DNA of 64,000 nucleotides from Tubiluchus corallicola (taxonomy: Eukaryota; Priapulida; Priapulimorpha; Priapulimorphida; Tubiluchidae). The position numbers and the translations under genes were made by a program. Shown here piece by piece: positions 1 to 39,084 of this stretch. How positions within the stretch are numbered: position 1 is the first letter of the stretch; the number at the start of each line of letters is the position of its first letter. The notes under the pieces were generated by a model. It worked only from the letters and a program-made list of their open reading frames with translations, had not been told where the DNA came from and ran no database searches. The stretch lies in contig JAQGDQ010000462.1 of the NCBI GenBank assembly GCA_030141605.1, positions 1 to 64,000 on the forward strand. Reading direction: 5' to 3'.

Positions 1-17
1 GTTTTACGTATTAATGG
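1..17 (+). other. LINE A fragment at the palindrome edge (junction)
   Basis: GTTTTACGTATTAATGG is identical to 28616-28632 inside the LINE A reverse transcriptase, in the same orientation. The last eight bases, ATTAATGG, are also the LTR sequence at the arm boundary (reverse complement of 28010-28017). The two sequences therefore meet at an 8-bp microhomology. Confidence 0.7.
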
Positions 18-1138
18 AAGGTCGGTAGTAGGCAGATGTCTTATAACGGTGACTTTATGATCGTCACCAAGGTCTCTACCAGTGCTCGGAGACATTGGAC
101 GGGGAGAAGTCTGAAGATTTGCCGACGACGGAAAGAGATCTCACAGAGCGAAAGAATTCGAAGGAACACCTTGCTGATGTCAGAAATTGCATGGCAGGGG
201 ATGTCACCTGCCGCCGATGCTGCCATATGGTGCAATCTTTAGCAAGGTCAGCTCTTCGAGATATAAACTCTAAGTTTTAGACACACACACACACACACAC
301 ACGAGGAGCGACGTGAGTTACACATACCCACGCACATCGAGGAGGAGAGTCTGACAGTGTGTCCGAGACAGCTTCTAGGAGAGAAGAACATCATTTGACA
401 CCAGCGTAGAGGAGTTCTGCGTTCTCAGCAATAGACTGGGCACTGGATCAGCGAAAGTCTCGTTAAGCTATTCAGCTAGCTATTTGGAGTTGACCGAGTG
501 TACGGGGTACATTGGTCAATCTGCAAGTTAAGTGTACTTAACATATTTGTATCTGAGAGTAACTCTGCATAACTGTGGTTCACATTGCATTAAGCACCTT
601 AAGTGCTGCATACTGAATCGTTGTCAAGTAAATCGTATGAGCATCTTCTCTGGAGCAATACATCAATTGTAAACGCTCACCAGCGTATAAGGATAAATCC
701 TGTAAAGCATACAAGATTAGATAAAGTGTATTCTGTAATTGAATAAATTCAATTCACTGTGGTAACGTAGATAACCAGTTCTTGTATGATTAAGAGCGTT
801 CAAAGCAAAGCAACACTAAATCCTAGATACGAACTTGAGAGATTGTACTAACTAAAGCTCAATTGCGGGAGCTACGCTCGATAACTTGAGGGAAGAAGAC
901 CTCCACTCACAACGCAAGGTCAAAGTGACAGACTTGAAGGTCAGCATCATTGCCTGATAGACTTAACTAAAGTCCTCGGAGTCAGGTGATAGAATCATCT
1001 TATAGCGAACAGAGAGCAAATCTGTAAAATCTAAACTAATGAAAATACAATCTGTACAATATATAGATTTAGTTCACGATCACTCAATACGGCTACATAA
1101 AACTATACGATCACTCTATCGAGAAAAGGATCGCTACA
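10..1138 (-). mobile_element. Truncated LTR (left-arm copy)
   Basis: This is the reverse complement of the first 1136 bases of the solo LTR at 26882-28304. It includes a short AC tract (about 282-302). The inner end abuts ATAG at 1139-1142, matching the CTAT target duplication seen in the right arm. The outer end is cut within the LTR at position 10, where it joins a LINE-like sequence. No coding region is seen. Confidence 0.8.
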
Positions 1139-2605
1139 ATAGGCCTATAATTATTAGGGTCACTATAATCGGACTTGCCATTGTTTTTAATAAATGTAAC
1201 CTTTGAGTCATTCCATGGCCAAATATTGCTCTCTAAGCAAATGTTGACTATATTGAGAAAGGTGGCTTTAGCCCAAAATCCCATGTTTTTTATCATTAGT
1301 GGATGAAACCCATGAATGTCTATGCTCTTGTTATTTGTTTTAACACTTTTTATCGCATTATTTAGTTCCCTCATGTTAAACCTATCATTAAGCCATGTAT
1401 GCTTCACAACTATTGGTTGATCAATTTGTTGGTCAACAATTTCCTCGATTTCTTCAAACCATGCATTATCAAATGAATTGGGATTTATATGTTCTCCACT
1501 AAAAAATGTTTTGTACATGAGTTTACTTTTGTCATCATCACTTACGTAATCTTTACCCAAAACTTTTAGGCTTTCTATTTCGTTACTGAATTTAGTTTCA
1601 AAAACGCGTTATACGTTTTCCAGAACTCCTTGCCTTGTGCTGCATTTAAATTTTCGGAATTTTTGTCAATCCACTTATTCATTTCTAAATGCAGCGCGTC
1701 ACTAAACTCTGACGTGGCTTCCACATAAGATTGCTTGTTTTCGTAATTGGACATCTGCAGGTAATTTCTCCTGCAAAGCCTCACTTTATTATTTACTTTT
1801 GTTAATTGACTAGACCAGAAAGGTTGGCTAAATTTTGTTATCATTTTCTTATTTAGTGCTTCTTCGTTTGCATTTTCTATGATCTTTCGGAGCTGTACCC
1901 AAGCACTCTGAACATCTTTGGCCTAAATAAGTTGATTTAGTTCATGAAATTGTTCTCTTACTTTACGTTCCAAAACACCTGACCATCTTTACCAATCACT
2001 ATTGTTAAAATCGTACACACAACGAACTACTTTATCATTTTCCGATAATTTACATTTAATTTTGTTCATAACAGCAAAGTGTCCCATTTGGGGTGCTCCC
2101 GAAAAGAACTCTGTATCTTTCTCTACATATTGCTGACAAAGTTGGGCAGAAAAGTTTTGCGTAGCTAATATAACATCAATTGTACTAGAACCAGTTGCAG
2201 GGTTCGTTTGGCGTAATAATGACGTGGACACCCTTGGCCTGATTTAAGAAGTTGTGAAGTTGTATGCCATGTTCATTGTCAATCCTATCCCAGAGAATAT
2301 TATGGGCGTTTAGATCGCCTATAGCCGCAATACTGTATATACCGTGTTTACTGCCGAAAGAAGCTGCTTTCTTCTACATTAATAACCATTTTCTCATTTG
2401 TTCAGGTGAATTTGGTTTTATATATACAGATCCTATTAAAATTTTAGTATGTGGCGTGTTTAAGATAACCCATACAACATCTAAATCTGAATCGCTTGCA
2501 TCTGATAAGTACAACATGTTACTGGCAATATTTTCTTTTATATACAAGGCTACTCCACCAGAGTAATTGCTCACGCCTTCTTTGAAACTCACTGAAGCAT
2601 AACTA
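1139..2605 (-). mobile_element. LINE A, left-arm copy (endonuclease to start of RT), decayed
   Basis: This is a non-LTR retrotransposon fragment on the minus strand and the mirror of 25415-26881. The frames contain an apurinic-endonuclease-like part (GGVALYIKEN, then GDLNAHNILWD, then SSTIDVILA), a linker, and the start of a reverse transcriptase ending at NNYRPI where the LTR interrupts it. Frameshifts and stops between the segments show it is dead. In the translated LINE segments I count three residue differences from the right-arm copy in about 390 residues. The closest superfamily by motif is CR1/Jockey; the clade is uncertain. Confidence 0.85.
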
Positions 2606-3594
2606 TAATGCTAGTGTGACAATTTTTAGAGACAGCTTCATTTCATCAGCCTTGACAAAAAATATGTGAACCCCATGGACACATAGACTATAACATATTA
2701 GCTGTATGTCAGCGATGTATGTCACGAATCTCGTCACCAGAGGTGCAGGCGCAGATACATGCTCAATGGCAGCCAAGTCAATTGTTCGTTTTGTGTACAG
2801 TTTTATCCGAACTTTTGCCAAGGATTCTCAAACATGAAATTTTCGTGAAGAATGAGGTACGAATAACCCATATAATCATGAGTTATTCAAGCCCAACTTA
2901 ATTTTGGTGATATTCCCCTTTTAAGTGACATTAATGACAAAAGTGAGCTCCAAATGAAAGATATCGGGCCGCAAATGGTCGAAATGTCCAGAAAACTACT
3001 CTTATATTAAAATTTGTGATAGTATTATTTCTGACGATGAAGATAGTTTATGAAGCCAATTTATTTATTGGATAGTGTGGCCGAAAGGGGGGCCTTGTAA
3101 TAGTTATTTCTTTTTGCCGAAAGGCTGAATAAGTACAGAAGACCGGTACATTTTTCAAAAAATCCAGAACATAAAACTGTGATTGAACACGCATGACACT
3201 GACTTATATGCATAGCTAATCATTGCCGAGTACACTCTCGAAATGGTATAAAAGGCATAATTATGTCATTTCTTACAAAATTTGAAAATAAATAATAAAA
3301 TAATGATTATAAATTTTATTCGTAAACAAATATTGTCTATTAAAGCACTGTATTGGTAGCTATAGAACTATTGCTGATGAGCAGTTTCTCAAAAAATGGA
3401 AAATTGACATAATCCCTTTTTGCACCAAGCCATGTAATTGTTATTATGTAAAATTTCAGGTTAGCGTCCTATCATTTACAGTGTAATTCATTTCTTTTCA
3501 ATTCTATATGATTTATAGGCGTGAACGCTCTAAAGGTATTGCAGGGACTCGTACGACAGGCGGGACTAATTTGCTTGTGTTTTAATTACTTTAG
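2606..3594. other. Non-coding stretch between LINE A and the receptor exons (left arm)
   Basis: This corresponds to intron sequence of the receptor gene in the right arm (24420-25414). I see no gene or named repeat. It is almost identical between arms. Confidence 0.6.
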
Positions 3595-4144
3595 TTTGCA
3601 CGCATTTCCTTCAATGTCTTTGCGGTTGAGCCCCATTCCAGTTGTGCCTCCGATGCTCTCTACGTTTACAGTGGCAATGATACGTCATCAACGTTACTGG
3701 CCACACTGTGCGGTTTCGATATTCCACCTGATTACGTATCATGTCAGCAACTATTCCTGCATTTCACAACAGATAACACTGTACCTTTTAGAGGCTTTGA
3801 GTTAGAAATCACTTTCACTTCTAGTAAACCTCTTCCGCCTGAAAATCATGAACTTTTTGAAAAGCAACCTGAAAATTCAGATGTTATAAGTAAAGATGAT
3901 GTAATGCTGGAATGTACAATGACAGAGACCTTTCTGAAGCTTCCCTGCTACGCGAATTATTCTTGTATCTGGACGCACAATGATGAAGTAATCCCAGTAG
4001 ACGAAATGGAAAATAATGAATACCTTGTTGATTTGGAAGATGATCGCTTGGGAAGTGGAAATCACAGTATTCTAGTCAGTGATATAGATTATTATCAGAG
4101 AGATGGGATCTATAAATGTGGATGCAGAGTTGATTTACATCAAG
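3595..4144 (+). CDS. Exon: CUB3 second half plus Ig1 (left copy)
   Basis: The exon enters in phase 0 and leaves in phase 1. It encodes the Cys3-Cys4 half of a CUB domain (CASDALYVYSG, then TLCGFDIPPDY, then LFLHFTTD) followed by an Ig-like domain with Cys in LECTM, YSCIW and GIYKCGC. Compared with 23870-24419 there are six changes in the last 84 residues. Flanks are ttactttag and gtaaaa. Confidence 0.85.
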
Positions 4145-7100
4145 GTAAAAGAACATAAACTCCATTTGGCATTATATCTTGCTTTTTTGTCTTACACTCA
4201 AGTGAAATTAATTTTTCGGATTTTTTATTTTGCTTATATCTAAAAAAGACACGATTTCTCATAGACCCAAACAAGTTTTGAGATGACTGACATAGCATTA
4301 TTAAAAGACGTGAAACTTTTTTTTGCAGTTTATACATATTCAGAAGAAGCAGAAGTAAGAGCTTTTGGTAAGTAGCTTTGCTACTGCATTGAAAAAATCA
4401 ATTTTAAATGACACTGTGGCATTACTTGAATAATTGGCGATCATATAATATCAGAACTCTGATTTAGCCTCACAATCTGCGCTTCTAATGTAATTTGTAA
4501 ACGTAATTGGTAAATAAAGGGCATTAATTTTTATTATAATTTGACTGACCAGCGCAACGTACAAGACAGCATAAGAAAATGTAAGGCACACTTCATGGAT
4601 GGATGGATGGGAAGCCAACAAACCGATGGACAATCTGATAGAAGGAATGATAGACAGACAAACAGACTGGAGAGCAAACAGACAGACAGCAGAAAAGACT
4701 GACTGACTGACTTCGCTGATATGTACTGACCATGCAGTCCTACTTGATCGTCAATGAATGCACTGTGCCAGAAAACTGGCAATTTAAACTGGACATAATG
4801 CACTGTTAAACATTCAATTGACTTTAATTAAATTGCACTTGGAAAAGTATGCTAAAAGCCTTGTTGGACTGCATGTGTTGTCTAGATGTTAGAATTTGTA
4901 ATCACCCATCCTGCCAATAGCGTTACTGCACTGCATGAATATTGATTTTAGAATTTATTAGCATCCATTTTACTCTTTTTTGTTATAAACTATGTAATCG
5001 CTCATTATTGAGAGACATTTGTCATATTTATGAACAGAAATATTCAATAACACGTACAGGATTATAATTTAACAGCTCCTGGTTGCCTGGGTGAGGTCTT
5101 TGACATAACAGAAGAACGTCTTCTCATATCACATCCTGGATATACTCAACAGAATTACTTTAATTATGTTAACTGTAGATGGCGCATCACTGCTCCAATG
5201 GGAAAGGTAACTAGTCTGTAATAGTTATTAGTTATTATTGGTTATTAGTGCTTCTTTGTAATTTTTTGTGATCATAATATAGGGCATCTGAAGACTATAT
5301 ATAATTGTTCGTATAATAATTCCGCAAAATAGTCTCATATTGATGTTAATGTACCACGTGTAGATGCATGCAACTGATATTATCATTATCAAGCAAATGA
5401 TATATGCTCTTGAATAACGATGACGCCTAATTTTTGAGAAAAGTAACGGAGAACAACGTTCAAGTTGAATTTTATGACAAACTTGTAGGAGCTTGCATAA
5501 TGACTAACTGCCTGGATGTGCTAAGTTCTAAATATCTTCTTATGGTCAACATCAAAATAAGTCCATATTTACGGTATCTTAGTTTGACTTGTCACACAAC
5601 TCTATACGTAGGTGGCTTCTGAATTTCATAATAGGATAGCTTTATTTGGTATACTTGTTATAAACTGAATTTTAATCCACAATTTTAAAATACAGTAGAA
5701 ATTTACATGACTAATACTTGCTTTATAATTACTTTCTGCTGCACGAATTCTTGTTCTTATATTTGCAGACAATATCCATATCCTTCAAGTCGTTTGCTGT
5801 TGAGTACCATACTAACTGTGCTTACGATGTACTTTACATCTATGATGATAGTGACAACAATGCGATGTCCATGATAGCTAGACTCTGTGGCTACAATCTT
5901 CCACCAGATTACCAGTCTTCTGGACAAGCGATGTTCCTTCACTTCACAACTGACGTTATGGTAACAGCTGCTGGTTTTGAAATTGAAATAAAATTCTTGG
6001 ATGTTACAATTTTTTCTGATGAACCACAAAATGCCGACGTAGTTAGTGGAGGAAGTGCTATATTAGAATGTGTGGTATCTGATGCATTCATCAGCAACAG
6101 TGAAGAGTATTCCTGCATTTGGAATCGAAATGAAGCTGACATTATTATAGAAGAAACTGACAACATTGAATACTTAATTGAAGTAGAGGAAGATCGTCTC
6201 AGAAGTGGAAATCATAGTATAAAGATCAGTGAAATAGATGTTGCTACACGAGACGGATTCTATAAATGTGGTTGCAGAGGAGACCCCACCCAAGGTAATC
6301 ATTATTAGAGTATTGATATTAACGTCTTAACAACCATTCTACCGGCTAGTATCAATGTTAGTAAGCCTATTAAAGACAATCCTAAAGTTCGTCCGCAGTC
6401 AGTTCTGCAATTATTTGGCATGGTAATTAGCAAATGTCACATAAACTTTTAAATAGACTGTCAGATTTATACGTGCAGATGTATGCAATATATGATGACC
6501 TTCTCTGAAATAAGCTTTAGAACTCATCGAACTGACATTCAAAAAACTGAAATGATACGCCTCTCAGATTTCTAACAAGCACAAAATATTGGGCATTACT
6601 TGGCGATTCAAATTAAAATTTCAAGAACACGCTGATTTAATGGTTCAAATATATCAGATTAATAAAAAAATGTCATATTACCATGACGCAGTTCAACACT
6701 GGACCATTACCAGTACAAATTAGAAGTATTTCAATTTTTAGCCCTTTCTTTAAATCATTTTCAGTTCTTGAACTACAACTATTTTCATTTGTGGGGTTTT
6801 GTTTTTGATAGTTCTTTTTGCAAAATTGTGTTTAAGCTTCAAAAACATTGCCTGCAGCCTTGCTTTAATATTTTAAGTAAACAGTTATTTTAATTTCTCC
6901 TATTTTGTGGATTTGTAATGTATCTTTTCATATATACCTTGTATTGTTTGTATGTGTACCTATATATGTGACAATATGTGTATAGATGTTTCCTTCCTCT
7001 CAGAGCATTTTCTTTGTAACTGGCAATTAGTAGCATGTAAACATGAACGTGCAATGCTGTTAGAAAGTTTCAAAATTATGTGGCTGCTGAAAATAACGTA

Positions 7101-10100
7101 CTTTACAAGTGAAAGAGTATGTGTGAGACTACTTGTTCCATGTCCGCTCAGCGCATGCTCTGCTACATGCACGCTGTGTTATTTCAGCAGCTGGTTCATT
7201 TTATATCTTATGGTTCATATAATATCTTAATTTAATCAGTACCGTGTTGTAAACGAGCTCTATTCCATTAATTTTTCTCCTGAATAAACGTTTTTCAAAT
7301 TTTTCAGTAAATGCATTAAAGTGAAAACGCATAGCTTACGTTTTCTCACCTCATTTCCTCATTTAGATATTTAAATTATATAAATTTTGCCCTTCATATA
7401 TATATATATATTCTTTTTGTGTTGATTTGAGATGATAGAGATTTAAGATTTCTAATTAATTTTTTAATTAATGTATATTTTAATTTTTTATCTGTGATTA
7501 TTTTAGATTATACATACACTGAAGAAGTAGAAGTAAAAATAGTCGGTAAGTAGAAAAAAACTGAGTTATCCGCCATTTTAGTTACAATATTTGCAAGAGG
7601 CGAAGGATTGTGTGTTATTCTATTGACAGTGAAGTTAAAAAACGTTTTGCTAGAAGGGCATGAATGTCCAAAGAAGAAGGCATATGATGAAGGCATTATT
7701 TAAAAACAGGCCTAGTCAATTTCTTTAATGAAGACTAGTTGCTATTATTTATAGAGAATAATGTAGATGGGGTGAGACCCTGTAGCGACTATCAAAACAA
7801 TTGATAAAGTCAAATGAAATGACGTAGAGCAAACAGGACCCAGCTGTACTACTGCAAACATTATCCATTTTTGTTAACGTACATTACATTACAGCAAAAC
7901 CCCATTATATGACTGATCCCGCATGCAACACTGAGATAGAGGAAAGAAATACTGGCTTCCTACAATCTCCTGTTTTCTGTTCCTATCCGAAGTTTGAGAG
8001 TGCAACTTGGACAATAACTGCAACAGCTCGCGATACAGTGACAGTTACACACTACGAGGTCGGCTACATTTATTACTTTGATGAATATCAAAGTTACTTG
8101 GAACCAACTACAAGCAATCATGCCTACGAGGAATGTTTTGAAGCCAAGATTTATATCAAAGCACTAGATCTGGAAGAAGGAGATATTCTTGATGTTGTCT
8201 TCAAGGTAGCTAACAACATCGGTCATGTGGATAAAAACTGTAGGGTAGAAATCATAAAAGGTATGCCAATATTTAGACTCATTGAAATTTAGACTAAAAA
8301 AAAATCCATAAAATTACTACTCATTGGTGTCAAAATTTGTTTCAGACTACACAACTAAAAGTTAAATTAACATAGTGTAAAACCAACATGATAAAATTTT
8401 ACAAATAACAAATAAAAACAGCCAACAAAACAAAGAAATTGTAAAGTCCAAATACTTTGGCAGAGGCAAAATTAACTAAAATAACAAACATCATAGTAAC
8501 TCTAACCCTAAACCCATTTTTTCTGTGGCATTTCTCCTGTGTCATATTTAGCTGTGTCTTTTTTTCCTATGTCACAACCATGTTGACATCGTTTTATGTC
8601 ACGAGAACGTCAACACAACTGGACAGCTTAGAATACCTCAACGAGAAAAATTTCGTCTATCTGGATTCAATCACATGATATAGTAGTACATAAAACGGTG
8701 ACGTTGAACACACCGGTAAAATCTGATTTCAAAACAGATTGGCTTCCAGTGTAATATCATCATATGGTCTAACTTTAAATTTTTTATGAAAATTGACAAT
8801 CGTTAGTGATAAAATTATGCGGTTTTGCAGCTAAAGCATCTAGTTACATAACCTGCATTACCCGTAGCCTGAACGTCGCATAACAGCAACAACAACAACA
8901 ATAACAACAAAGGCAATAATGATGATGATGATATCATAAAATTTGGTGCAAGCTGGTACAAGCCATACTTCTGCTGGTAGCTAAAGGTCATATGTTTTTC
9001 CGTTTGGCTAAATTTCCTGTGTAAATTTCTAGCAGATAGAATTTGGTACAAAATTATTTTGCAAAGCTAGCTTCGTCTCCATGACTAACTACTTTACTAC
9101 TTCATTTGAATCTAATAACAGAAAATCCAAGCACCCATGATTCTTGAACAGTGCAGTGTTATGTCCAGTTGAGATGAGTAATATAAATAAAAGAAACTAC
9201 GAATAATCATAGCAGATATGCTGCTAAACACATTTAATTTATTAATACAAATTTTTGATTGCTTTACGTTCTCACCTTCAAAGATGCTGAGCTGATATTG
9301 TTGAAGCAGTTATTGCAGGCACTGTTGCTGCTATTGTTGAAACAGTTATTGCTGGCACTGTTGCTGCTATTGTTGAAACAGTTATTGCTGGCACTGTTGC
9401 TGATACTGTTGAAACAGTTATTGCAGGCACTGTTGCTGCTATTGTTGAAACAGTTATTGCTGGCACTGTTGCTGCTATTGTTGAAACAGTTATTGGTGGC
9501 ACTGTTGCTGCTATTGTTGAAACAGTTATTGCTGGCAATGTTGCTGTTATTGCTCAAACAGCTATTGCTGGCACTGTTGCTGCTGTTGTTGAAACAGTTA
9601 TTGCAGGCACTGTTGCTGCTATTTTTGAAACAGTTATTGGTGGCACTGTTGCTGCTATTGTTGAAACAGTTATTGCTGGCAATGTTGCTGTTATTGCTCA
9701 AACAGCTATTGCGGGCACTGTTGCTGCTGTTGTTGAAACAGTTATTGCAGGCACTGTTGCTGCTATTTTTGAAACAGTTATTGGTGGCACTGTTGCTGCT
9801 ATTGTTGAAACAGTTATTGCTGGCAATGTTGCTGTTATTGCTCAAACAGCTATTGCTGGCACTGTTGCTGCTGTTGTTGAAACAGTTATTGCAGGCACTG
9901 TTGCTGCTATTGTTGAAACAGTTATTGGTGGCACTGTTGCTGCTATTTTTGAAACAGTTATTGCTGGCAATGTTGCTGTTATTGCTCAAACAGCTATTGC
10001 TGGCACTGTTGCTGCTGTTGTTGAAACAGTTATTGCAGGCACTGTTGCTGCTATTTTTGAAACAGTTATTGGTGGCACTGTTGCTGCTATTGTTGAAAGA

Positions 10101-12259
10101 GTTATTGCAGGCACTGTTGCTGCTATTTTTGAAACAGTTATTGGTGGCACTGTTGCTGCTATTGTTGAAACAGTTATTGCTGGCAATGTTGCTGTTATTG
10201 CTCAAACAGCTATTGCTGGCACTGTTGCTGCTGTTGTTGAAACAGTTATTGCAGGCACTGTTGCTGCTATTGTTGAAACAGTTATTGGTGGCACTGTTGC
10301 TGCTATTTTTGAAACAGTTATTGCTGGCAATGTTGCTGTTATTGCTCAAACAGATATTGCTGGCACTGTTGCTGCTGTTGTTGAAACAGTTATTGCAGCA
10401 CTGTTCTGCTATTTTGAAACAGTTATTGTGGCACTGTTGCTGCTATTGTTGAAAGAGTTATTGCTGGCACTGTTGCTGCTGTTGTTGAAACAGTTATTGC
10501 TGGCACTGTTGCTGCTATTGTTGAAACCGTTATTGCTGGCACTGTTGCTGCTGTTGTTGAAACAGTTATTGCTGGCACTGTTGCTGCTGTTGTTGAAACA
10601 GTTATTGCTGGCACTGTTGCTGCTGTTGTTGAAACAGTTATTGCTGGCACTGTTGCTGCTATTGTTGAAAGAGTTATTGCTGGCACTGTTGCTGCTATTG
10701 TTGAAAGAGTTATTGCTGGCACTGATGCTGCTATTGTTGAAACAGTTATTGCTCCTCATGCAGTGGTCGCTCTTCGAAGCAAATAAAAATTTTACGATTT
10801 TCAGAAGAGTCTGATATAAAGCTTGGTGCAATACTCGGTGTTGTATTTGGATTACTTGCTCTTATCATTATCGTTCCTATCATAGTGGTCGCTTGTTCTT
10901 CCAACAACAAGAAGAGCAGTTCTGGACGTGAGTATTCTAGCAAGTTTATCAATATAATACTATTTTTCCCGAAAGGCACGAAACGCATTTTAGGTACCTC
11001 GAGGTCTACAGTAATATTAGCATTTCAAAAATCACCATAATAGCTTAAGCTGCTAAGAATAAAATGAATTTTTTTTAAACATGTTTTACGTACCTTTCTC
11101 AGGCCAACAGTAACATGAGCATATCAAAAATAAGGTCTCCTAAGAGTGAAAATTTTATACTAGTTAAAAATTACAGAAAATTTGATAAGGCTGCAAGTGC
11201 GTTTTCTCATTAACTGTATGTGGTTTTTAAAAATAAAATGTATTATTCTAGCGAACCTAACTAATATAACATAATAGTTGGATGTAACAAAAACGTCTAA
11301 CAAGCAAACGAACGAAGCAAACAAAACAAACAAACAAACCAAGCAAGATTAACTTCTAAAGCTCGTAGAACAACCCGTAGAAGCAGACGACAGTTGAATG
11401 TTCAGATGACTTCAGATGAAAAATGAAATGAATGAAGTGAGCTAAGAGAAGATGGCATGCTAATAATGAAATGCGTCTAGAGAGCTTGTACTGTTTGCTG
11501 CATATATCTTTGCTTATAAAAATGTTACTTAGTGCAATTACACACAGTGATACATACTTTGCGTTGAAATCAGGTAAATGTAGGTGTGATAAGCTACGAA
11601 TTTTTAGGTCTGATTAGATGCTGTTATTCCTGGTCACGTCAATACTAAGTTTTTTACAATTTAATGTTATATAAAGGCGTATATATGACACATTTTTGAA
11701 AGTACTGTTCATATTTTGACTCATATATGTAAACTTAATTTCACATCGTTCCAAGGTATCTGATCTTTTTTGCAACTGAAAGAAAACAATGATTGGTGAA
11801 CCTCATTGCAAAATCGTCTCGTATTTCGATATAAAAATTTGTCTGTCATGATGAAGATTTTAAGAGATTCGTGACCTAATTAAAAGAAGTTAGTTTGATT
11901 AAGTGGTGAAACGATATAATAAAGTCCATATTTTCAATTCCCATCTGGAAGTTTCAGCATTGAACTGATAACATTCAAAATTTGCGAAAAATAGCGTTTA
12001 TACTCACAGAACAGTAATTTTTTGTTTAACCCATTATAGTTATACAAATTTAACGCAATTGTCATTAGCTGGTGTTCTTCTGTCTTCAAAAGCCTTTAAA
12101 ACTCATGGTCTCTTTCATTTTTTCGTTTCAGAAGAAGCTTCTCACGATGCAGAAATGTCATCTACGCCTGCGTACAGCACGGAAGCTACTAAGGTGCCAA
12201 TGAGCAGCAAGGAGATTTTAGAAGACAATAATTTACATAACGTGTCTGAATCTTTCTAA
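3595..12259 (+). CDS. Partial inverted copy of the CUB/Ig receptor gene (8 exons)
   Basis: The eight exons are 3595-4144, 4329-4367, 5076-5206, 5769-6294, 7507-7545, 7895-8260, 10805-10927 and 12132-12259. They total 1902 bases (633 codons plus stop), with every junction in phase and with GT and AG at the intron ends. The product would be half of CUB3, Ig1, a 13-residue linker, CUB4, Ig2, a second linker, a third Ig-like domain, one membrane helix and a 42-residue tail ending in SESF. The signal peptide, CUB1, CUB2 and the first half of CUB3 are absent within the window, because the arm ends in LINE/LTR sequence. The exons carry no stops or frameshifts. It may be a real paralogue with 5' exons further left, a truncated gene, or a second haplotype joined in inverse orientation. 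Confidence 0.8.
4329..4367 (+). CDS. Exon: 13-residue acidic linker 1 (left copy)
   Basis: This 39-bp phase 1-1 exon encodes YTYSEEAEVRAF. The flanks are ttttgcag and gtaagt. It matches a similar exon after Ig2, which shows that the CUB-Ig-linker block was duplicated as a unit. Confidence 0.75.
5076..5206 (+). CDS. Exon: CUB4 first half (left copy)
   Basis: This 131-bp phase 1-0 exon starts APGCLGEVFDITEER, has the typical LISHPGY turn and the second Cys in NCRWRI, and ends at APMGK before gtaact. It is the mirror of 22811-22941. Confidence 0.85.
5769..6294 (+). CDS. Exon: CUB4 second half plus Ig2 (left copy)
   Basis: This 526-bp phase 0-1 exon completes CUB4 (NCAYDVLYIYDD, LCGYNLPPDY, MFLHFTTD) and encodes a second Ig-like domain (ILECVVS, YSCIWNRNE, DGFYKCGC). 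It is the mirror of 21732-22257 with a handful of replacements. Flanks are tttgcag and gtaatc. Confidence 0.85.
6295..7506. other. Intron after Ig2 exon (left copy)
   Basis: I see no gene. It is AT-rich with a short TA tract (about 7398-7411). This is one of the regions where the two arms differ most. Confidence 0.5.
7507..7545 (+). CDS. Exon: 13-residue linker 2 (left copy)
   Basis: This 39-bp phase 1-1 exon encodes YTYTEEVEVKIV. Flanks are ttttag and gtaagt. It resembles linker 1. Confidence 0.7.
7895..8260 (+). CDS. Exon: third Ig-like/beta-sandwich domain (left copy)
   Basis: This 366-bp phase 1-1 exon encodes a domain with Cys at DPACNTE, VFCSYP, EECFEAKI and KNCRVEI. I do not recognise a specific family; it is probably a membrane-proximal beta-sandwich. 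It differs from 19891-20256 at about seven residues. Flanks are acag and gtatgc. Confidence 0.75.
8261..9290. other. Intron sequence before the minisatellite (left copy)
   Basis: No gene is visible. It holds short CAA/GAT trinucleotide runs (about 8885-8935), which are longer in the right arm. Confidence 0.5.
9293..10753. repeat. 36-bp intronic minisatellite (left, long allele)
   Basis: About 40 copies of a 36-bp unit have the core GCACTGTTGCTGCTATTGTT. Because 36 is a multiple of three and the unit lacks stops, several frames on both strands stay open for hundreds of codons; these are not genes. Part of the array has a 144-bp higher-order period. The marker TTGCTCAAACA recurs near 9550, 9694, 9838, 9982, 10198 and 10342. 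Confidence 0.95.
10805..10927 (+). CDS. Exon: transmembrane segment (left copy)
   Basis: This 123-bp phase 1-1 exon encodes LGAILGVVFGLLALIIIV and further hydrophobic residues, then a polar CSSNNKKSSSG stop-transfer region. It lies just after the minisatellite. Flanks are ttttcag and gtgagt. Confidence 0.85.
10928..12131. other. Last intron (left copy)
   Basis: AT-rich intron sequence. I see no gene or named element. Confidence 0.5.
12132..12259 (+). CDS. Exon: cytoplasmic tail and stop (left copy)
   Basis: This 128-bp last exon encodes a Ser/Thr/Glu-rich tail ending NVSESF and TAA. It has one Tyr (PAYSTEA), which does not fit an ITIM consensus. The acceptor is cgtttcag. Confidence 0.8.
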
Positions 12260-12330
12260 AGAAAACCAGCTACATACCCCTATCAGCAATGGAATGAGAA
12301 AAAAACAGCGATCTGTATTATCCTGCTAGT

Positions 12331-12336
12331 AATAAA
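12331..12336 (+). terminator. Polyadenylation signal AATAAA (left copy)
   Basis: AATAAA lies about 72 bases after the stop. The mirrored site in the right arm reads AGTAAA, a weaker variant. Confidence 0.55.
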
Positions 12337-12366
12337 TCATTTTCACGCCCTATATGATGACGACGG

Positions 12367-12368
<2 letters not shown>

Positions 12369-12414
<46 letters not shown>

Positions 12415-12436
12415 CGATGACGATGATGATGATGAC
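12369..12436. repeat. GAT trinucleotide microsatellite
   Basis: A run of GAT/GAC triplets just downstream of the 3' UTR. The right-arm partner (about 16727-16775) is shorter. Confidence 0.9.
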
Positions 12437-12654
12437 AATGACATCGACACTAAAACTTTTAGAAAAAAATTGCAGGATTTTTGTGAATTTAAATCAAAAC
12501 AAAAACTTGTTTTGTAACAACACAACAATATTTTGCGTATCAGAAACTTTGCTTTTATTTTCTTCTACTTTTCTTTGTTTTCTGCTTTCCCTTCTTCTTT
12601 TTTCTCAGCATTTTTCTTCATTCTCACAACATTATTATTGTTGTGCTTTTTGTT

Positions 12655-12765: not shown

Positions 12766-12815
12766 CAAACCTTGTTAAGTAATTGTTCAACCACGTACAC
12801 GTCTCATGTGCCTTC

Positions 12816-14581: not shown

Positions 14582-14582
<1 letters not shown>

Positions 14583-14659: not shown

Positions 14660-14661
<2 letters not shown>

Positions 14662-16146: not shown

Positions 16147-16147
<1 letters not shown>

Positions 16148-16999: not shown

Positions 17000-19294
17000 C
17001 TGAAACGAAACAATGAAAGAGACCATGAGTCTTAAAGGCTTTTGAAGACAAAAGAACACCAGCTAATGACGATGGCGTTAAATTTGCATAACTTTAAAGG
17101 GTTAAACAAAAAATTACTGTTCTGTGAGTATAAACGCTATTTTTCGCAAATTTTGAATGTTATCATTTCAATGCTGAAACTTCCAGATGGGAATTGAAAA
17201 TATGGACTTTATTATATCGTTTCACCACCTAATCAAACTAACTCCTTTTAATTAGATCACGAACCTCTTAAAATCTTCATCATGACAGACAAATTTGTAC
17301 ATCGAGATACGAGACGATGTTGCAATGAGGGTCGCCAATCATTGTTTTATTTTAGTCGTAAAAAAGATCAGATAGCTTGGAATGATATGTAAATAAGTTT
17401 ACATATGTGAGTCAAAATATGAACGGTACTTTCAAAAATGTGTCATACATACACCTTTATATAACATTAAATTGTAAAAAACTTAGTATTGACATGAGCA
17501 GGAATAACAGCATCTAATCAGACCTAAAAATTCGTAGCTTATCACACCTACATTTACCTGATTTCAACGCAATTTATGTATCACTGTGTGTAATTGCCTT
17601 AAGTAACATTTTTATAAGCAAAAATATATGCAGCAAACTGTACAAGCCCTCTAGATGCATTTCATTATTAGCATGCCATCTTCTCTTAGCTCACTTCATT
17701 CATTTCATTTTTCAGCTGAAGTCATCTAAACATTCAACTGTCATCTGCTTCTATGGGTTGTTCTACGAGCTTTAGAATTTAATCTTGCTTGGTCTGTTTG
17801 CTTGTTTTGTTTGCTTGGTTTGTTTACTTGTTTGGACGTTTTTGTTACATCCAAATATTATGTTATATTAGTTAGGTTCGCTAGAATAACACATTTTATT
17901 TTAAAAACAACATACAGTTAATGAGAAAACGCATTTGCAATCTCATATATTTTTCTGTAATTTTTAACTAGTATAAAATTTTCACTCTTAGGAGAGCTTA
18001 TTTTTGGCAAGCTCATATCACTGTGACTTGAGAAAGGTACGTAAAACATGTTTAAAAAAATCATTTTGTTCTTAGCCGCTTAAGCTATTGTGGAGATTTT
18101 TGAAATGCTAATATTACTGTTGACCTCGAGGTACCTAAAGTGCGTTTCGTGGCTTTCGGGAAAAATAGTATTATATTGATAAACTTGCTAGAATACTCAC
18201 GTCCAGAACTGCTCTTCTTGTTGTTGGAAGAACAAACAACCACCATGGTAGGAACGATAATGATAAGAGCAAGTAATCCAAATACAACACCGAGTATTGC
18301 AACAAGCTTTATATCAGACTCACCTGAAAATCGTAAAATTTTTATTTGCTTTTGGGAGCGACCATTGCATGTTAGCAATAGTAACAATAGCAGCAACAAT
18401 GCCAGCAATAACTTTTTCAACAATAGCAGCAACAGTGCCTGCAATAACTGCTTCAACAACAGCAGCTACAGTGCCAGCAATAACTGTTTCATCAATAGCA
18501 GCAACAGTGCCTGCAATAGCTGTTTCAACAGTAGCAGCAACAGTGCCAGCAATAGTTGTTTCACCAATAGCAGCAATAGTGCCAGCAATAACTGTTTCAA
18601 CAAAAGCAGCAACAGTGCCAGCAATAACTGTTTCAACGATAGCAGCAACAGTGCCTGTAATAACTGCTTCAACAATAGCAGCAACAGTGCCAGCAATAAC
18701 TGTTTCAACAACAGCAGCAACAGTGCCAGCAATAACTGTTTCAACAATAGCAGCAACAGAGCCAGCAATAACTGTTTCAACAACAGCAGCAACAGTGCCA
18801 GCAATAACGGTTTCAACAATAGCAGCAACAGTGCCTGCAATAACTGCTTCAACAATATCAGCAACAGTGCCAGCAATAACTGTTTTAAAAATAGCAGCAA
18901 CAGTGCATGCAATAACTGTTTCAACAATATCAGCTCAGCACATGTGAAGGTGAGAGCGTAAAGCAATCAAAAATTTGTATTAATAAATTAAATGTGTTTT
19001 AGCAGCATATCTGCTATGATTATTCGTAGTTTCTTTTAACTTATATTACTCATCTCAACAGGACATAACACTGCACTGTTCAAGAATCATCGGTGCTTGG
19101 ATTTTCTGTTATTAGATTCAGATGAAGTAATAAAGTAGTTAGTCATAGAGACGAAGCTAGCTTTACAAAATAATTTTGTACCAAATTCTATCTGCTAGAA
19201 ATTTACACAGGAAATTTAGCCAAACGGAAAAACATATGACCTTTAGCTACCAGCAGAAGTATGGCTTGTACCAGCTTGCACCAAATTTTATGAT

Positions 19295-19344
<50 letters not shown>

Positions 19345-20754
19345 TATTGCCTTTGTTGTTATTGTTGTTGTTGTTGCTGTTATGCGACGTTCAGGCTACG
19401 GGTAATGCAGGTTATGTAACTAGATGCTTTAGCTGCAAAACCGCATAATTTTATCACTAGCGAATGTCAATTTTCATAAAAATGTTAAAGTTATAGATGA
19501 TGATATAACACTGGAGGTGTCTAGTTGTGCGGACGTTCTCATGTCATAAAACGATGTCAGCATTTTTACAACATAGGAAAAAAGACAATGCTAAATTTGA
19601 GGCAGGAAAAATGCCGCAGAAAAAATGGCAAACCTAGACAAATATGGGTTTAGGGTTAGAGTTACTATGGGGACAATTATTTTAATCAATTTTTCCTGTG
19701 CCAAAGTAGTTAGGTTTCACAATTCCATTGTTTTGTTGGCTGTTTTTTGTAAAATTTTATGATGTTAGTTTTACGCTGCATTAATTCAACTTTTAGTTGT
19801 GTAGTCTGAAATAAACTTTGACACCAATGAGTAGTAATTTTGAGGAATTTTTTTTAGTTTAAATTTCAATGAGTCTAAATTTTGGCATACCTTCAATGAT
19901 TTCTACCCTACAGTTTTTATCCACATGACCGATGTTGTTAGCTACCTTGAAGACAACATCAAGAATTTCTCCATCTTCCAGATCTTGTGCTTTGATGTAA
20001 ATCTTGGCTTCAAAACATTCCTCGTAGGCATGATTGCTTGTAGTTGGTTCCAAGTAACTTTGATATTCATCAAAGTAATAACTGTAGCCGACATCATAGT
20101 GTGTAACTGTCACTGTATCGTGGGCTGTTGCAGTTATTGTCCAAGTTGCACTCTCAAACTTCGGATAGGAACAGAAAACAGGAGATTGTAGGAAGCCAGT
20201 ATTTCTTTCCTCTATCTCGGTGTTGCATGCGGGATCAGTCATATAATGGGGTTTTGCTGTAATGTAATGTACATTAACAGAAATGGATAATGTTTGCAGT
20301 AGTACAGCTGGGTCCTGCTTGCTCTACGTCAATTCATTTGACTTTGTCAAGTGTTGTGATAGTCGATACAGGGTCTCACCCCATCTACCTTAACTAGACT
20401 AGATAATAGCAACTAATCTTCATTAAAGAAACTGAACAGGCCTGTTTTTAAATAAAATATGATTTAAATAATGCCTTCATCATATGCCTTCTTCTTTTAA
20501 CATTCATGCCCATCTAACAAAACATTGCTTTAACTTCACTGTCAACAGAATATTACACAATCCTTTCCCTCTTACAAATATTGTAACTAAAATGGCGGAT
20601 AACTCTGTTTTCTTCTACTTACCGACTATTTTTACTTCTACTTCTTCAGTGTATGTATAATCTAAAATAATCACAGATAAAAAATTAAAATCTACATTAA
20701 TTAAAAAATTAATTAGAAATCTTAAATCTCTATAATCTCAAATCATCACAAAAA

Positions 20755-20799
<45 letters not shown>

Positions 20800-23700
20800 G
20801 GGCAAAATTTCCAGAATTTAAATATAAGCAGAATTTAATATCTAAATGAGGTGAGAAAACGTGAGCTATATGTTTTCACTTTAATGCATTTATTGAAAAA
20901 TTTGACAAAATGTTTTATTCAGGAGAAAAGTTAATGGAACAAAGCTCGTTTACAACAGGGTACTGATTAAATTAAGATATGAAATGAACCAGCTGCTGAA
21001 ATAACACTGCGTGCAAGTAGCGGAGCAGACATCCGCTGAGCAGACATGGAACAAGTAGTCTCACTCATACTCTGTCACTTGTAAAGTACGTTATTTTCAG
21101 CAGCCACATAATTTTGAAACATTGTAACAGTATTGCACGTTCATGTTTACATGCTACTAATTGTCAGCTACATCGAAAATGCTCTGAGAAGAATGAGACA
21201 TCTATACATACATTGTCACATATAGAGGTACACATACAAACAACACAAGGTATATATGAAAAAATGTACCAGAATAGCACAAAATTAGAGAAATTAAAAC
21301 AGGCGTTTACTTAAAATATTAAAGCAAGGCTGCAGGCAATGTTTTTGAAGCTTAAACACTATTTTGCAAAAAGAACTATCAAAAACAAAACGCCACAAAC
21401 GAAAATAGTTGAAGTTCAAGAACTGAAAATGATTTAAAGAAAGGGCTAAAAATTGAAATACTTCTAATTTGTATCATTCCAGTTTTCTAAATGTCAGTTC
21501 GATGAATTCTAAAGCTTCTAAACTTATTTCAGAGAAGGTCATCATAATATTGCATACATCTGCACATATAAAGCAGACAGTCTATTTAAAAGTTTGTGTG
21601 ATATATGTTAATTGCCGTGTTAATTGCAGAACTGATTGTGGACGAATTTTAGGATTATTTTTAATAGGCTTACTAACATAGATAATAGCCAGTAGAATGG
21701 TTGTTAATATCAATACTCTAATAATGATTACCTTGGGTAGGGTCTCCTCTGCAACCACATTTATAGAATCCGTCTCGCATAGCAACATCTATTTCACTGA
21801 CCTTTATACTATGATTTCCACTTCTGAGACGATCTTCCTCTACTTCAATTAAGTATTCAATGTAGTCAGTTTCTTCTACAATAATGTCAGCTTCATTTCG
21901 ATTCCAAATGCAGGAATACTCTTCACTGTTGCTGATGAATGCATCAGATACCACACATTCTAATATAGCACTTCCTCCACTAACTACGTCTGCATTTTGT
22001 GGTTCATCGTAAAAAATTGTAACATCCAAGAATTTAATTTCAATTTCAAAACCAGCAGCTGTTACCATAACGTCAGTTGTGAAGTGAAGGAACATTGCTT
22101 GTCCAGAAGACTGGTAATCTGGTGGAAGATTGTAGCCACAGAGTCTAGCTATCATGGACATCGCATTGTTGTCACTATCATCATAGATGTAAAGTACATC
22201 GTAAGCACAGTTAGTATGGTACTCAACAGCAAACGACTTGAAGGATATGGATACTGTCTGCAAATATAAGAACAAGAATTCGTGCAGCAGAAAGTAATTA
22301 TAAAGCAAGTATTAGTCATGTAAATTTCTACTGTATTTTAAAATTGTGGATTAAAATTCAGTTTATAACAAGTATACCAAATAAAGTTATCCTATTATGA
22401 AATTCAGAAGCCACCTACGTATAGAGTTGTGTGACAAGTCAAACTAAGATACCGTAAATATGGACTTATTTTGATGTTGACCATAAGAAGATATTTAGAA
22501 CTTAGCACATCCAGGCAGTTAGTCATTATGCAAGCTCCTACAAGTTTGTCATAAAATTCAACTTGAACGTTGTTCTCCGTTACTTTTCTCAAAAATTAGG
22601 CGTCATCGTTATTCAAGAGCATATATCATTTGCTTGATAATGATAATATCAGTTGCATGCATCTACACGTGGTACAGTTGTTTATTAACATCAATATGAG
22701 ACTATTTTGCGGAATTATTATACGAACAATTATATATAGTCTTCAGATGCCCTATATTATGATCACAAAAAATTACAAAGAAGCACTAATAACTATTACA
22801 GACTAGTTACCTTTCCCATTGGAGCAGTGATGCGCCATCTACAGTTAACATAATTAAAGTAATTCTGTTGAGTATATCCAGGATGTGATATGAGAAGACG
22901 TTCTTCTGTTATGTCAAAGACCTCACCCAGGCAACCAGCAGCTGTTAAATTATAATCCTGTACGTGTTATTGTATATTTCTGTTCATAAATATGACAAAT
23001 GTCTCTCAATAATGAGTGATTACATAGTTTATAACAAAAAAGAGTAAAATGGATGCTAATAAATTCTAAAATCAATATTCATGCAGTGCAGTAAGGCTAT
23101 TGGCAGGATGGGTGATTACAAATTCTAAAATCTAGACAACACATGCAGTCCAACAAGGCTTTTAGCATACTTTTCCAAATGCAATTTAATTAAAGTCAAT
23201 TGAATGTTTAACAGTGCATTATGTCCAGTTTAAATTTTCCAGTTTTCTGGTACAGTGCATTCATTGACGATCAAATAGGACTGCATGGTCCGTACATATC
23301 AGCGAAGTCAGTCAGTCAGTCTTTTCTGCTGTCTGGCAGTTTGCTCTCCAGTCTGTTTGTCTGTCTATCATTCCTTCTATCAGATTGGCCATCGGTTTGT
23401 TGGCCTCCCATCTATCCATCCATGAAGTGTGCCTTACATTTTCTTACGCTGTCTTGTACGTTGCGCTGGTCTGTCAAATTATAATAAAAATTAAAGCCAT
23501 TTATTTACCAATTACGTTTACAAATTACATTAGAAGCGAAGATTGTGAGGCTAAATCAAACTTTGATATTATATTATCGCCAGTTATTCAAGTAATGCCA
23601 CAGTGTCATTTAAAATTGATTTTTTCGATACAGTAGCAAAGCTACGTACCAAAAGCTCTTACTTCTCCTTCTTCTGAATATGTGTAAACTGCAAAAAACA

Positions 23701-26700
23701 TTCACGCCTTTTAATAATGCTATGTCGATTATCTCAAAACTTGTTTGGGTCTGTGAGAAATCGTGTCTTTTTTAGATATAAGCAAAATAAAAAATCCGCA
23801 AAATAAATTTCACTTGAGTGTAAGAAAAAAAGCAAGATATAATGCCAAATGGAGTTTATGTTCTTTTACCTTGATGTAAATCAACTCTGCATCCACATTT
23901 ATAGATCCCATCTCTCTGATAATAATCTATATCACTGACTAGAACACTGTGATTTCCACTTCCCAAGCGATCATCTTCCAAATCAACAAGGTATTCAATA
24001 TTTTCCATTTCGTCTACTGGGATTACTTCATTGTTGTGCGTCCAGATACAAGAATAATTCGTGTAGCAGGAATGCTTCAGAAAGGTCTCTGTCATTGTAC
24101 ATTCCAGCATTACATTATCTTTACTTATAACATCTGCATTTTTAGGCTGTTTTTCAAAAAGTTCATGATTTTCAGGCGGAAGAGGTTTACTAGAAGTGAA
24201 AGTGATTTCTAACTCAAAACCTCTAAAAGGTACAGTGTTATCTGTTGTGAAATGCAGGAATAGTTGCTGACATGATACGTAATCAGGTGGAATATCGAAA
24301 CCGCACAGTGTGGCCAGTAATGGTGATGACGTATCATTGCCACTGTAAACGTAGAGAGCATCGGAGGCACAACTGGAATGGGGCTCAACCGCAAAGGCAT
24401 TGAAGGAAATGCGTGCAAACTAAAGTAATTAAAACACAAGCAAATTAGTACCGCCTGTCGTACGAGTCCCTGCAATACCTTTAGAGCGTTCACGCCTATA
24501 AATCATATAGAATTGAAAAGAAATGAATTACACTGTAAATGATAGGACGCTAACCTGAAATTTTACATAATAACAATTACATGGCTTGGTGCAAAAAGGG
24601 ATTATGTCAATTTTCCATTTTTTGAGAAACTGCTCATCAGCAATAGTTCTATAGCTACCAATACAGTGCTTTAATAGACAATATTTGTTTACGAATAAAA
24701 TTAATAATCATTATTTTATTATTTATTTTCAAATTTTGTAAGAAATGACATAATTATGCCTTTTATACCATTTCGAGAGTGTACTCGGCAATGATTAGCT
24801 ATGCATATAAGTCAGTGTCATGCGTGTTCAATCACAGTTTTATGTTCTGGATTTTTTGAAAAATGTACCGGTCTTCTGTACTTATCCAGCCTTTCGGCAA
24901 AAAGAAATAACTATTACAAGGCCCCCCTTTCGGCCACACTATCCAATAAATAAATTGGCTTCATAAACTATCTTCATCGTCAGAAATAATACTATCACAA
25001 ATTTTAATATAAGAGTAGTTTCCTGGACATTTCGACCATTTGCGGCCCGATATCTTTCATTTGGAGCTCACTTTTGTCATTAATGTCACTTAAAAGGGGA
25101 ATATCACCAAAATTAAGTTGGGCTTGAATAACTCATGATTATATGGCGAATAGAAATACGTACCTCATTCTTCACGAAAATTTCATGTTTGAGAATCCTT
25201 GGCAAAAGTTCGGATAAAACTGTACACAAAACGAACAATTGACTTGGCTGCCATTGAGCATGTATCTGCGCCTGCACCTCTGGTGACGAGATTCGTGACA
25301 TACATCGCTGACATACAGCTAATATGTTATAGTCTATGTGTCCATGGGGTTCACATATTTTTTGTCAAGGCTGATGAAATGAAGCTGTCACTAAAAATTG
25401 TCACACTAGCATTATAGTTATGCTTCAGTGAGTTTCAAAGAAGGCGTGAGCAATTACTCTGGTGGAGTAGCCTTGTATATAAAAGAAAATATTGCCAGTA
25501 ACATGTTGTACTTATCAGATGCAAGCGATTCAGATTTAGATGTTGTATGGGTTATCTTAAACACGCCACATACTAAAATTTTAATAGGATCTGTATATAT
25601 AAAACCAAATTCACCTGAACAAATGAGAAAATGGTTATTAATGTAGAAGAAAGCAGCTTCTTTCGGCAGTAAACACGGTATATACAGTATTGCGGCTATA
25701 GGCGATCTAAACGCCCATAATATTCTCTGGGATAGGATTGACAATGAACAGGGCATACAACTTCACAACTTCTTAAATCAGGCCAAGGGTGTCCACGTCA
25801 TTATTACGCCAAACGAACCCTGCAACTGGTTCTAGTACAATTGATGTTATATTAGCTACGCAAAACTTTTCTGCCCAACTTTGTCAGCAATATGTAGAGA
25901 AAGATACAGAGTTCTTTTCGGGAGCACCCCAAATGGGACACTTTGCTGTTATGAACAAAATTAAATGTAAATTATCGGAAAATGATAAAGTAGTTCGTTG
26001 TGTGTACGATTTTAACAATAGTGATTGGTAAAGATGGTCAGGTGTTTTGAAACGTAAAGTAAGAGAACAATTTCATGAACTAAATCAACTTATTTAGGCC
26101 AAAGATGTTCAGAGTGCTTGGGTACAGCTCCGAAAGATCATAGAAAATGCAAACGAAGAAGCACTAAATAAGAAAATGATAACAAAATTTAGCCAACCTT
26201 TCTGGTCTAGTCAATTAACAAAATTAAATAATAAAGTGAGGCTTTGCAGGAGAAATTACCTGCAGATGTCCAATTACGAAAACAAGCAATCTTATGTGGA
26301 AGCCACGTCAGAGTTTAGTGACGCGCTGCATTTAGAAATGAATAAGTGGATTGACGAAAATTCCGAAAATTTAAATGCAGCACAAGGCAAGGAGTTCTGG
26401 AAAACGTATAACGCGTTTTTGAAACTAAATTCAGTAACGAAATAGAAAGCCTAAAAGTTTTGGGTAAAGATTACGTAAGTGATGATGACAAAAGTAAACT
26501 CATGTACAAAACATTTTTTAGTGGAGAACATATAAATCCCAATTCATTTGATAATGCATGGTTTGAAGAAATCGAGGAAATTGTTGACCAACAAATTGAT
26601 CAACCAATAGTTGTGAAGCATACATGGCTTAATGATAGGTTTAACATGAGGGAACTAAATAATGCGATAAAAAGTGTTAAAACAAATAACAAGAGCATAG

Positions 26701-29700
26701 ACATTCATGGGTTTCATCCACTAATGATAAAAAACATGGGATTTTGGGCTAAAGCCACCTTTCTCAATATAGCCAACATTTGCTTAGAGAGCAATATTTG
26801 GCCATGGAATGACTCAAAGGTTACATTTATTAAAAACAATGGCAAGTCCGATTATAGTGACCCTAATAATTATAGGCCTATTGTAGCGATCCTTTTCTCG
26901 ATAGAGTGATCGTATAGTTTTATGTAGCCGTATTGAGTGATCGTGAACTAAATCTATATATTGTACAGATTGTATTTTCATTAGTTTAGATTTTACAGAT
27001 TTGCTCTCTGTTCGCTATAAGATGATTCTATCACCTGACTCCGAGGACTTTAGTTAAGTCTATCAGGCAATGATGCTGACCTTCAAGTCTGTCACTTTGA
27101 CCTTGCGTTGTGAGTGGAGGTCTTCTTCCCTCAAGTTATCGAGCGTAGCTCCCGCAATTGAGCTTTAGTTAGTACAATGCGAATCTCTCAAGTTCGTATC
27201 TAGGATTTAGTGTTGCTTTGCTTTGAACGCTCTTAATCATACAAGAACTGGTTATCTACGTTACCACAGTGAATTGAATTTATTCAATTACAGAATACAC
27301 TTTATCTAATCTTGTATGCTTTACAGGATTTATCCTTATACGCTGGTGAGCGTTTACAATTAATGTATTGCTCCAGAGAAGATGCTCATACGATTTACTT
27401 GACAACGATTCAGTATGCAGCACTTAAGGTGCTTAATGCAATGTGAACCACAGTTATGCAGAGTTACTCTCAGATACAAATATGTTAAGTACACTTAACT
27501 TGCAGATTGACCAATGTACCCCGTACACTCGGTCAACTCCAAATAGCAGCTTATTAGCTTAACGAGACTTTCGCTGATCCAGTGCCCAGTCTATTGCTGA
27601 GAACGCAGAACTCCTCTACGCTCGCTGGTGTCAAATGATGTTCTTCTCTCCTAGAAGCTGTCTCGGACACACTGTCAGACTCTCCTCCTCGATGTGCGTG
27701 GGTATGTGTAACTCACGTCGCTCCTCGTGTGTGTGTGTGTGTGTGTCTAAAACTTAGAGTTTATATCTCGAAGAGCTGACCTTGCTAAAGATTGCACCAT
27801 ATGGCAGCATCGGCGGCAGGTGACATCCCCTGCCATGCAATTTCTGACATCAGCAAGGTGTTCCTTCGAATTCTTTCGCTCTGTGAGATCTCTTTCCGTC
27901 CTCGGCAAATCTTCAGACTTCTCCCCGTCCAATGTCTCCGAGCACTGGTAGAGACCTTGGTGACGATCATAATGTCACCGTTATAAGACATCTGCCTACT
28001 ACCGACCTTCCATTAATTAACTGTAACTCTGCATGTGGCTATACAAGACAATAGTGTCTTCGCTTAAACAAGACACCTGTGTTCCTCCAATATGCTATAC
28101 AAGACACACCTGTATTTCTCTACAATGTGCAATAATTTGCGTCGCATTAAATCCGTACTTATCAGCTGGGTGAGTTTCTCTGTCAACCAATAAATTTATC
28201 TTATGAAAATCAATGAGGCATGAGATTTATCAACTGAATCTAATTCAGCTGATAACTCCATTAATTTGCTACCAAATTATCGATTTATAAATTTATTCAC
28301 AACACTATCAGCATTACCTCCCACTATGGAAAACTAGCAGAAAAGCTTCTTGAAAATCGTGTGACATATGACATTATTGTTGATGAGCAAGAAGGCTTCA
28401 GGCCCAGACACAGTACAGTACGCTACTTGGTCAGGCTTATGTCTAACCTGACTAGAACAAATTTACTTAAAACAAACTGCATTGCAATTCTTTGCGACTT
28501 TCAAAAAGCTTTCGATAGTGTTTGGATAAATGCGCTATTATACTAGTTGTATCAATATGGTATTAAAGGAAACATGTTGTGTCTTATTAGTACATTTTTA
28601 AAAAATTGCAATATTGTTTTACGTATTAATGGTCATACATCTCCAAAGTACAATTGTTAGTTGGGTCTCCCACAAGGTTCCGTTTTGTCACCATTACTGT
28701 TTTTGTTGTATGTTATTGACATGTTTGAATCTATAGATGATGAAGTATGCTGTGAAAAATTTAAATATGCAGATGATGGTTTTTTGCTAATCACAGCTGA
28801 CACGAACTATGAATGTTATTTAAAAGCACAAAAATGTTGTGATAAACTGTACACTTGGAGTAAGAAGTGGCGGATGAACATAAACTGTGCCAAAAACAAA
28901 ACTGAAGCCATTTTGTACAAGAACTCCAAAATTTTGAGTTGGGAACCAGACCAACCAAACCTCAAATTTGGGAATAATCCTATTGATTATGTAAGAAAAA
29001 GCAAAGTGCTGGGGGTCACAGTGGACAATCAATTAAATTTTAATGCTCACATGCTAGATACCAGGAAAAAGGCGTGGAAAACATGGCAACAGCTAAAGCA
29101 GTTTTGTTTCTCTGCAAATAGAGGGAATTTATATATACAGTGGCCGCCGCTTATTGTGGACACCTCGGGCCAGCAGTGTATGTCCATATTAAGCGGCTGT
29201 CCATATTAAGCGAAGTGACCCATGAAGACCCTTCCCCTTCATTAAAAAAGGCAAAAAACTGTCTGTATCAACTCGTCTCTTGTTTTATTGAAAAAAAGAA
29301 GTCAGACGAGTTTGTTTGGCAGGAAACTTTTCTCTCAACCTTGAACGGAAGGAAGTTATCACAGTTTCGAAGCTCTCAAGGCCACGGCAAACGGCGAACT
29401 GACTGATGCAATGACTCACACAGGCAGCAGAGCGGGAAGCTCTTTTCAATCACGCGCGCAGGCCGTGGTTGGCACGGCTGGTTCACGTGCCAAGAATGTT
29501 CGCTGTCCATATTAAGCGGCGGTTGTCCATATTAACCGGCGGATTTTATTAGGGGAAAATTCCGTCCCTCGCGAGTTGTCCACAATAACCGACTGTCCAC
29601 AATAACCGTGTCCATAATAAGCGGCGGCCACTGTATTATGTATGTATTTATGTTAATATATATAATAAAATAGAGTTATAATAAAAAATAATCAGTGAGT

Positions 29701-39080: not shown

Positions 39081-39084
39081 AACA

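Follow-up and report, generated by a model that had tools for sequence, protein, structure and literature searches.

In Caenorhabditis elegans, newborn gene duplicates are described as often adjacent and inverted (PMC2728529), and the palindromes of ape Y chromosomes are presented in PMC7953838 as large gene-bearing inverted repeats with stretches homogenised by arm-to-arm gene conversion. Moreover, colinear blocks of genes in inverted orientation have been reported within single contigs of the assemblies of Adineta vaga, Folsomia candida and Botryllus schlosseri, where depth was needed to verify that they are real (PMC7953838, PMC7749112, PMC12448946); in the last species, the authors judged the palindromes to be real from depth and structural checks (PMC12448946).

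The locus described here lies in the first 64,000 bases (hereafter the window) of C982, a contig of 181,639 bp in the Tubiluchus corallicola assembly (343.5 Mb, 2344 contigs). It resembles the young duplicates of C. elegans in its neighbouring inverted copies, and the ape palindromes in being a large gene-bearing inverted repeat with an apparently homogenised stretch. However, the copies are not newborn, since over most of their length they differ by 6-8%, the outer part being nearly identical, and unlike in the ape palindromes, most of the arm differs by 7.68% and the near-identical part is found on the outer side. Furthermore, in contrast to the multi-gene blocks of the three other assemblies, it concerns one gene and is known from the assembly alone. 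We consider it probable that this is a real tail-to-tail inverted segmental duplication of a CUB/Ig receptor gene, of the ordinary kind and partly homogenised, and we favour this reading over that of two haplotypes joined head to head, which we regard as unlikely.

Self-comparison and local alignment of the window define arm A at 10-13873, with the gene in the plus sense, and arm B at 14838-28017, with the gene in the minus sense. The two are colinear and inverted, in agreement with the preliminary description of two arms facing each other. The main inverted blocks pair 10-6558 with 28017-21471 (97.3% identity), 6714-8625 with 21473-19518 (87.0%) and 10191-12405 with 18934-16726 (92.0%), while lesser blocks reach 13465/15189 and local alignment extends the arms to 13873 and 14838. 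Inverted matches 2.0-6.6 kb long at 87-97% identity exclude chance as the source of the similarity. The spacer between the arms, previously put at about 1 kb, measures 964 bp (13874-14837) and is not palindromic, its halves scoring 27 in local alignment against a best of 34 in 100 shuffles. A search of the assembly with 13300-15500 returned 42 matches: one is the query, two are the ends of the arms, and the remaining 39 are short, repeat-like and at most 89% identical. It thus revealed no second copy of the spacer beyond short repeat pieces. A tRNA scan yielded 0 genes.

Two colinear inverted arms flanking a spacer correspond to the architecture of a large palindrome. Cruciform formation, in turn, calls for a short loop and near-perfect inner arms. 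Here the spacer is large and the inner arms match poorly, being only ~81-82% alike, with a longest exact match of 55 bp past 12.9 kb, so that the extrusion previously suggested for this inverted pair finds no support and is unlikely.

Each arm carries six 3′ exons, E6 to E11, of equal lengths (550, 131, 526, 366, 123 and 128 bases). Their splice sites are canonical, their phases agree, and in neither arm are they interrupted by stops or frameshifts; the eight receptor exons per arm counted earlier are therefore reduced to six by splice sites and phases. In arm A, on the plus strand, E6 (3595-4144) encodes the second half of a CUB domain followed by Ig, the open frame matching the Pfam CUB profile at 9.4e-11; E7 (5076-5206) encodes the first half of the next CUB; E8 (5769-6294), its second half and another Ig (CUB 5.3e-16; V-set 9.5e-4); E9 (7895-8260), a membrane-near domain without family match; E10 (10805-10927), a transmembrane segment as judged by eye; and E11 (12132-12259), a short tail with the stop codon. 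The coding order is thus CUB-Ig, CUB-Ig, membrane-near domain, membrane segment and tail. The arm B counterparts, on the minus strand, are found at 23870-24419 (E6), 22811-22941 (E7), 21732-22257 (E8), 19891-20256 (E9), 18201-18323 (E10) and 16872-16999 (E11).

The arm B gene (gene B) extends past 28017 to 35.9 kb, outside the region delimited by the preliminary description, through five further minus-strand exons (30994-35885): E1 (35692-35885) and E2 (34993-35230) encode the first and second halves of one CUB, E3 (33864-34027) and E4 (31793-32039) those of another, and E5 (30994-31145) a first half. The resulting eleven-exon model has four CUB units and 0 stops, its 5′ part lying beyond the arms; upstream of E1, a signal-peptide exon was not identified. 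As read from its domains, the predicted product is an animal CUB/Ig transmembrane receptor, and the two copies stand tail to tail with their 3′ ends facing. The CUB profile matches (9.4e-11, 5.3e-16 and 3.2e-11) are each above the curated cut-off. Those to Ig profiles (V-set 9.5e-4, Ig_3 0.026) both fall below it, and the Ig domains are putative, resting on these profiles and on our own inspection of the sequence. Among solved structures, the CUB matches (15 sequences, E <=0.01) include cubilin, the best at 8.8e-33, PCPE-1, TSG-6 and neuropilins; the receptor differs from cubilin and neuropilins in its alternating CUB and Ig exons, its family-less membrane-near domain and its short tail. A structure model of E9 built from two sequences, with a mean pLDDT of 55.3, was too weak for use. 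No named orthologue was established, and the literature search returned neither a matching receptor nor a paper on this locus.

The arms also share their insertions. LINE-like reverse-transcriptase fragments, recognised in open frames on the plus strand at 26098-29209 (RVT_1 1.6e-12 for 28661-29209), occupy intron 5 of gene B and are split by a repeat of ~1.4 kb (26893-28307) nested in the reverse-transcriptase frame. The inner junction of this repeat is common to both arms, being placed at 1127 in arm A, where the remainder is cut by the contig start; the claim that the same nested insertion is present in both arms is thus confirmed. A search with 27000-28017 gave at least 46 matches, two of them the arms and the best others at 82-90%, with the best 40 of 190 candidates scored. 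The LINE is adjoined, at approximately 29138-29634, by a short DNA element with inverted ends that has very many near-identical copies. Since base 1 of C982 is also the first base of the window, position 10 is the contig end and no biological boundary; the contig ends inside a repeat, so the true extent of the duplication is not visible on C982, and it may exceed arm B, whose arm A counterpart is cut there.

Other differences between the arms announced by the preliminary description, i.e., substitutions and microsatellite changes, are likewise present. A minisatellite with a 36-bp unit, located in the intron preceding the membrane exon E10, comprises 40.8 units in arm A (9291-10753, 1463 bp) and 15.3 units in arm B (18383-18934, 552 bp), a difference of 911 bp where about 900 had been given; as the array precedes the 3′ splice site of E10, a coding minisatellite is excluded. 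The indel put at about 500 bp corresponds, from its flanking matches, to ~480 bp extra in arm B (15776-16719 against 12412-12875 in arm A).

Divergence is distributed in steps. With simple repeats, the minisatellite array and the badly aligning stretch 12340-12980 excluded, the arms differ at 467 of 11,272 aligned sites, with 17 of 3550 in segment 10-3562 (0.48%), 68 of 2750 in 3563-6341 (2.47%) and 382 of 4972 in 6342-13900 (7.68%). The first split of the segmentation gains 146 log units against a maximum of 7.3 in 500 permutations, and in 250-bp steps, 5001-6000 is low again (6 of 983 sites). Inverted arms around a loop-like spacer are what a read or polymerase fold-back from one template would also produce. 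Nevertheless, the stepwise divergence, together with indels and changes of repeat length, rules out a simple fold-back, as already argued in the preliminary description, unless a template switch ran between haplotypes, which amounts to a misjoin; we give this explanation practically no credit.

These steps bear on the arm-to-arm gene conversion that had been proposed. Near-identical tracts amid diverged sequence (0.48% against 7.68%) are consistent with it, and hint that one receptor copy partly overwrote the other; however, the arms are not near-identical over most of their length, 6342-13900 standing at 7.68%, and an allelic history could yield the same pattern, just as recombination among alleles would if the arms were misjoined haplotypes. 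A bolder version, in which the tail-to-tail pair exchanges CUB/Ig exons by repeated conversion and acts as a small generator of diversity, is in our opinion doubtful: exons, and even the nested transposon insertion, would pass from copy to copy, while the membrane-side exons would stay distinct.

The 5′ half missing from arm A leads to another contig. Among the matches listed for 30000-36000 (best 40 of 4931 candidates scored), C1167 (23,766 bp) is the only near copy of the 5′ half besides the window, with 93% identity over 34823-35993. It carries E1 to E5 in order and then ends ~2.4 kb downstream of E5, so that the halves are complementary, C1167 holding E1-E5 and arm A only E6-E11. The lengths of E1-E4 are conserved (194, 238, 164 and 247), and E5 has a 9-base insertion. 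With E5 left out of all values, divergence is similar across the halves: dS 0.060 and dN 0.034 for E1-E4 of C1167 against gene B, and dS 0.046 and dN 0.026 for E6-E11 of arm A against arm B. In both, nonsynonymous changes per site are fewer than synonymous ones (ratio 0.57), with Fisher p = 0.061 for E6-E11 alone and 0.021 for both halves together on rounded counts.

Matching pieces at 77-95% connect C1167 to 31-39.15 kb of the window, and past ~8.9 kb it has in common with the window (39-64 kb) one repeat piece only. Its 17.1-20 kb region matches instead contig C134 at ~90%, colinearly and close to the end of the latter at 63,989; an open frame in this region resembles Mab-21, below cut-off. 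The far flank of C1167 thus resembles C134 and not the window, which suggests that it is non-allelic to the flank of gene B, and two 5′ halves with different neighbours speak for paralogues, the junction of C1167 with arm A being one that we infer. Against this junction, E5 of C1167 is only ~81% like that of gene B and intron 5 beside it shows no similarity between the two. Whereas the arms, their intact exons, the steps in identity and the complementary halves are observed, the location of both copies on one chromosome and the conversion are, like this junction, inferred. These data suit the order C134 - C1167 - arm A - spacer - arm B - remainder of C982, although no sequence bridges C1167 and arm A. 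If C1167 is part of arm A, the near-identical part is flanked on both sides by ~6-8% divergence, as conversion predicts.

The deviation of E5 and intron 5, greater than that of the rest, would also suit a real duplication with C1167 as a third paralogue apart from it, in which case the palindrome would end in unassembled repeat beyond base 1. This variant lies within the reading of a real duplication and their probabilities overlap; it requires that one more 5′ half, for arm A, and one 3′ half, for C1167, be missing, neither of which was among the matches listed, and we hold it to be quite improbable. In the real duplication as we picture it, a receptor gene belonging to a family with many other copies would have been duplicated in inverted orientation, the duplicated unit probably spanning the whole gene and beyond, at least from E1 to past E11, and the part of arm A beyond position 1, absent from C982, would probably be found on C1167.

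The preliminary description had feared that two haplotypes were wrongly joined head to head, and this doubt is a fair one. According to it, the two arms would be divergent haplotypes of a single receptor locus, united through a chimeric read or a fault in assembly. C982 begins inside arm A, and C910 begins in a comparable way, its first 6000 bases containing an inverted 1.2-kb pair (1-1204 with 4777-3579, 92.8%) with the same nested repeat. Look-alike contigs in this neighbourhood are highly divergent: C134 and C1167, ~90% alike, may be an allele pair, in which case allelic divergence here can equal that between the arms. Furthermore, the assembly holds redundant contigs, the same DNA being present on two to six of them with no difference in the compared stretches: 4-kb loci are identical on C2142/C2128 and on C2264/C2138/C1787, and 300-bp probes on six contigs (C2107, C2074, C2072, C1974, C1831, C1752). 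Artificial palindromes created by scaffolding errors are a known problem (PMC7953838), and for A. vaga a single palindrome is reported in a later assembly where the first had many (PMC7749112).

The comparison with the whole assembly nevertheless tilts against a misjoin. With a non-palindromic spacer and no N within the window, the joined ends have no common sequence, i.e., no overlap that would have led an assembler to unite two haplotypes there. Beyond the absence of a second spacer copy, no allele-like copy of 39.2-46.4 kb was found among the best 40 candidates scored; this query was used because, with 36000-47000, 39 of the 40 matches listed fell on a single repeat at the query end. Moreover, the second 5′ half, on C1167, is flanked by other sequence, and eIF3d, normally single-copy, is confined to a single contig, C177, which accounts for all 9 of its 9 matches. 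On these grounds we rate the joining of haplotypes as unlikely and retain the real inverted duplication.

The two arms are embedded in a wider family. Identity of 89% or more to the 3′ half is confined to the two arms, as judged from a search with 5400-8400 in which 18 of 18 candidates were scored: of its 27 matches, 5 lie on C982 and the other 22, at 69-84%, on C503 (16) and on C225, C1927, C215, C1297, C1957 and C1946 (one each). C503, at 13001-22500 and over the rest of the contig, harbours an array of eight CUB-Ig exon pairs in tandem, ~2 kb apart, with ~70-75% DNA identity to E8, and such local duplication elsewhere in the family speaks for a real event at the present locus. If the duplication is real, it offers a compact case in which two intact receptor genes stand inverted to each other and share a stretch of clear near-identity, suited to the study of sequence exchange; if it is a misjoin, it illustrates that incomplete collapse of an assembly can make a divergent receptor locus look like a pair of genes. 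In both cases, the family on C503, C225, C1927 and C1167 merits annotation.

Outside the duplication, the window holds several other features. Polycystin-type channel exons are present on the minus strand at 45711-50173 (PKD_channel 1.8e-31 and Polycystin_dom 2.1e-22 for 49109-50173); C1835 and C2275 carry copies of them at 91-94%. Three tandem units of 258 bp, 99% identical, lie at 51978-52753 within a retrotransposon-like endonuclease frame, and a minus-strand open frame at 57172-58713, with an integrase zinc-binding match of 1.7e-5, just below the cut-off, is probably a retroelement fragment. Finally, a repeat of ~550 bp at 32254-32801 has at least 40 copies; C1442 and C1633 each carry two inverted ~550-bp repeat copies with equal scores, ~14-15 kb apart, an arrangement that may reflect a large element bounded by long inverted termini.
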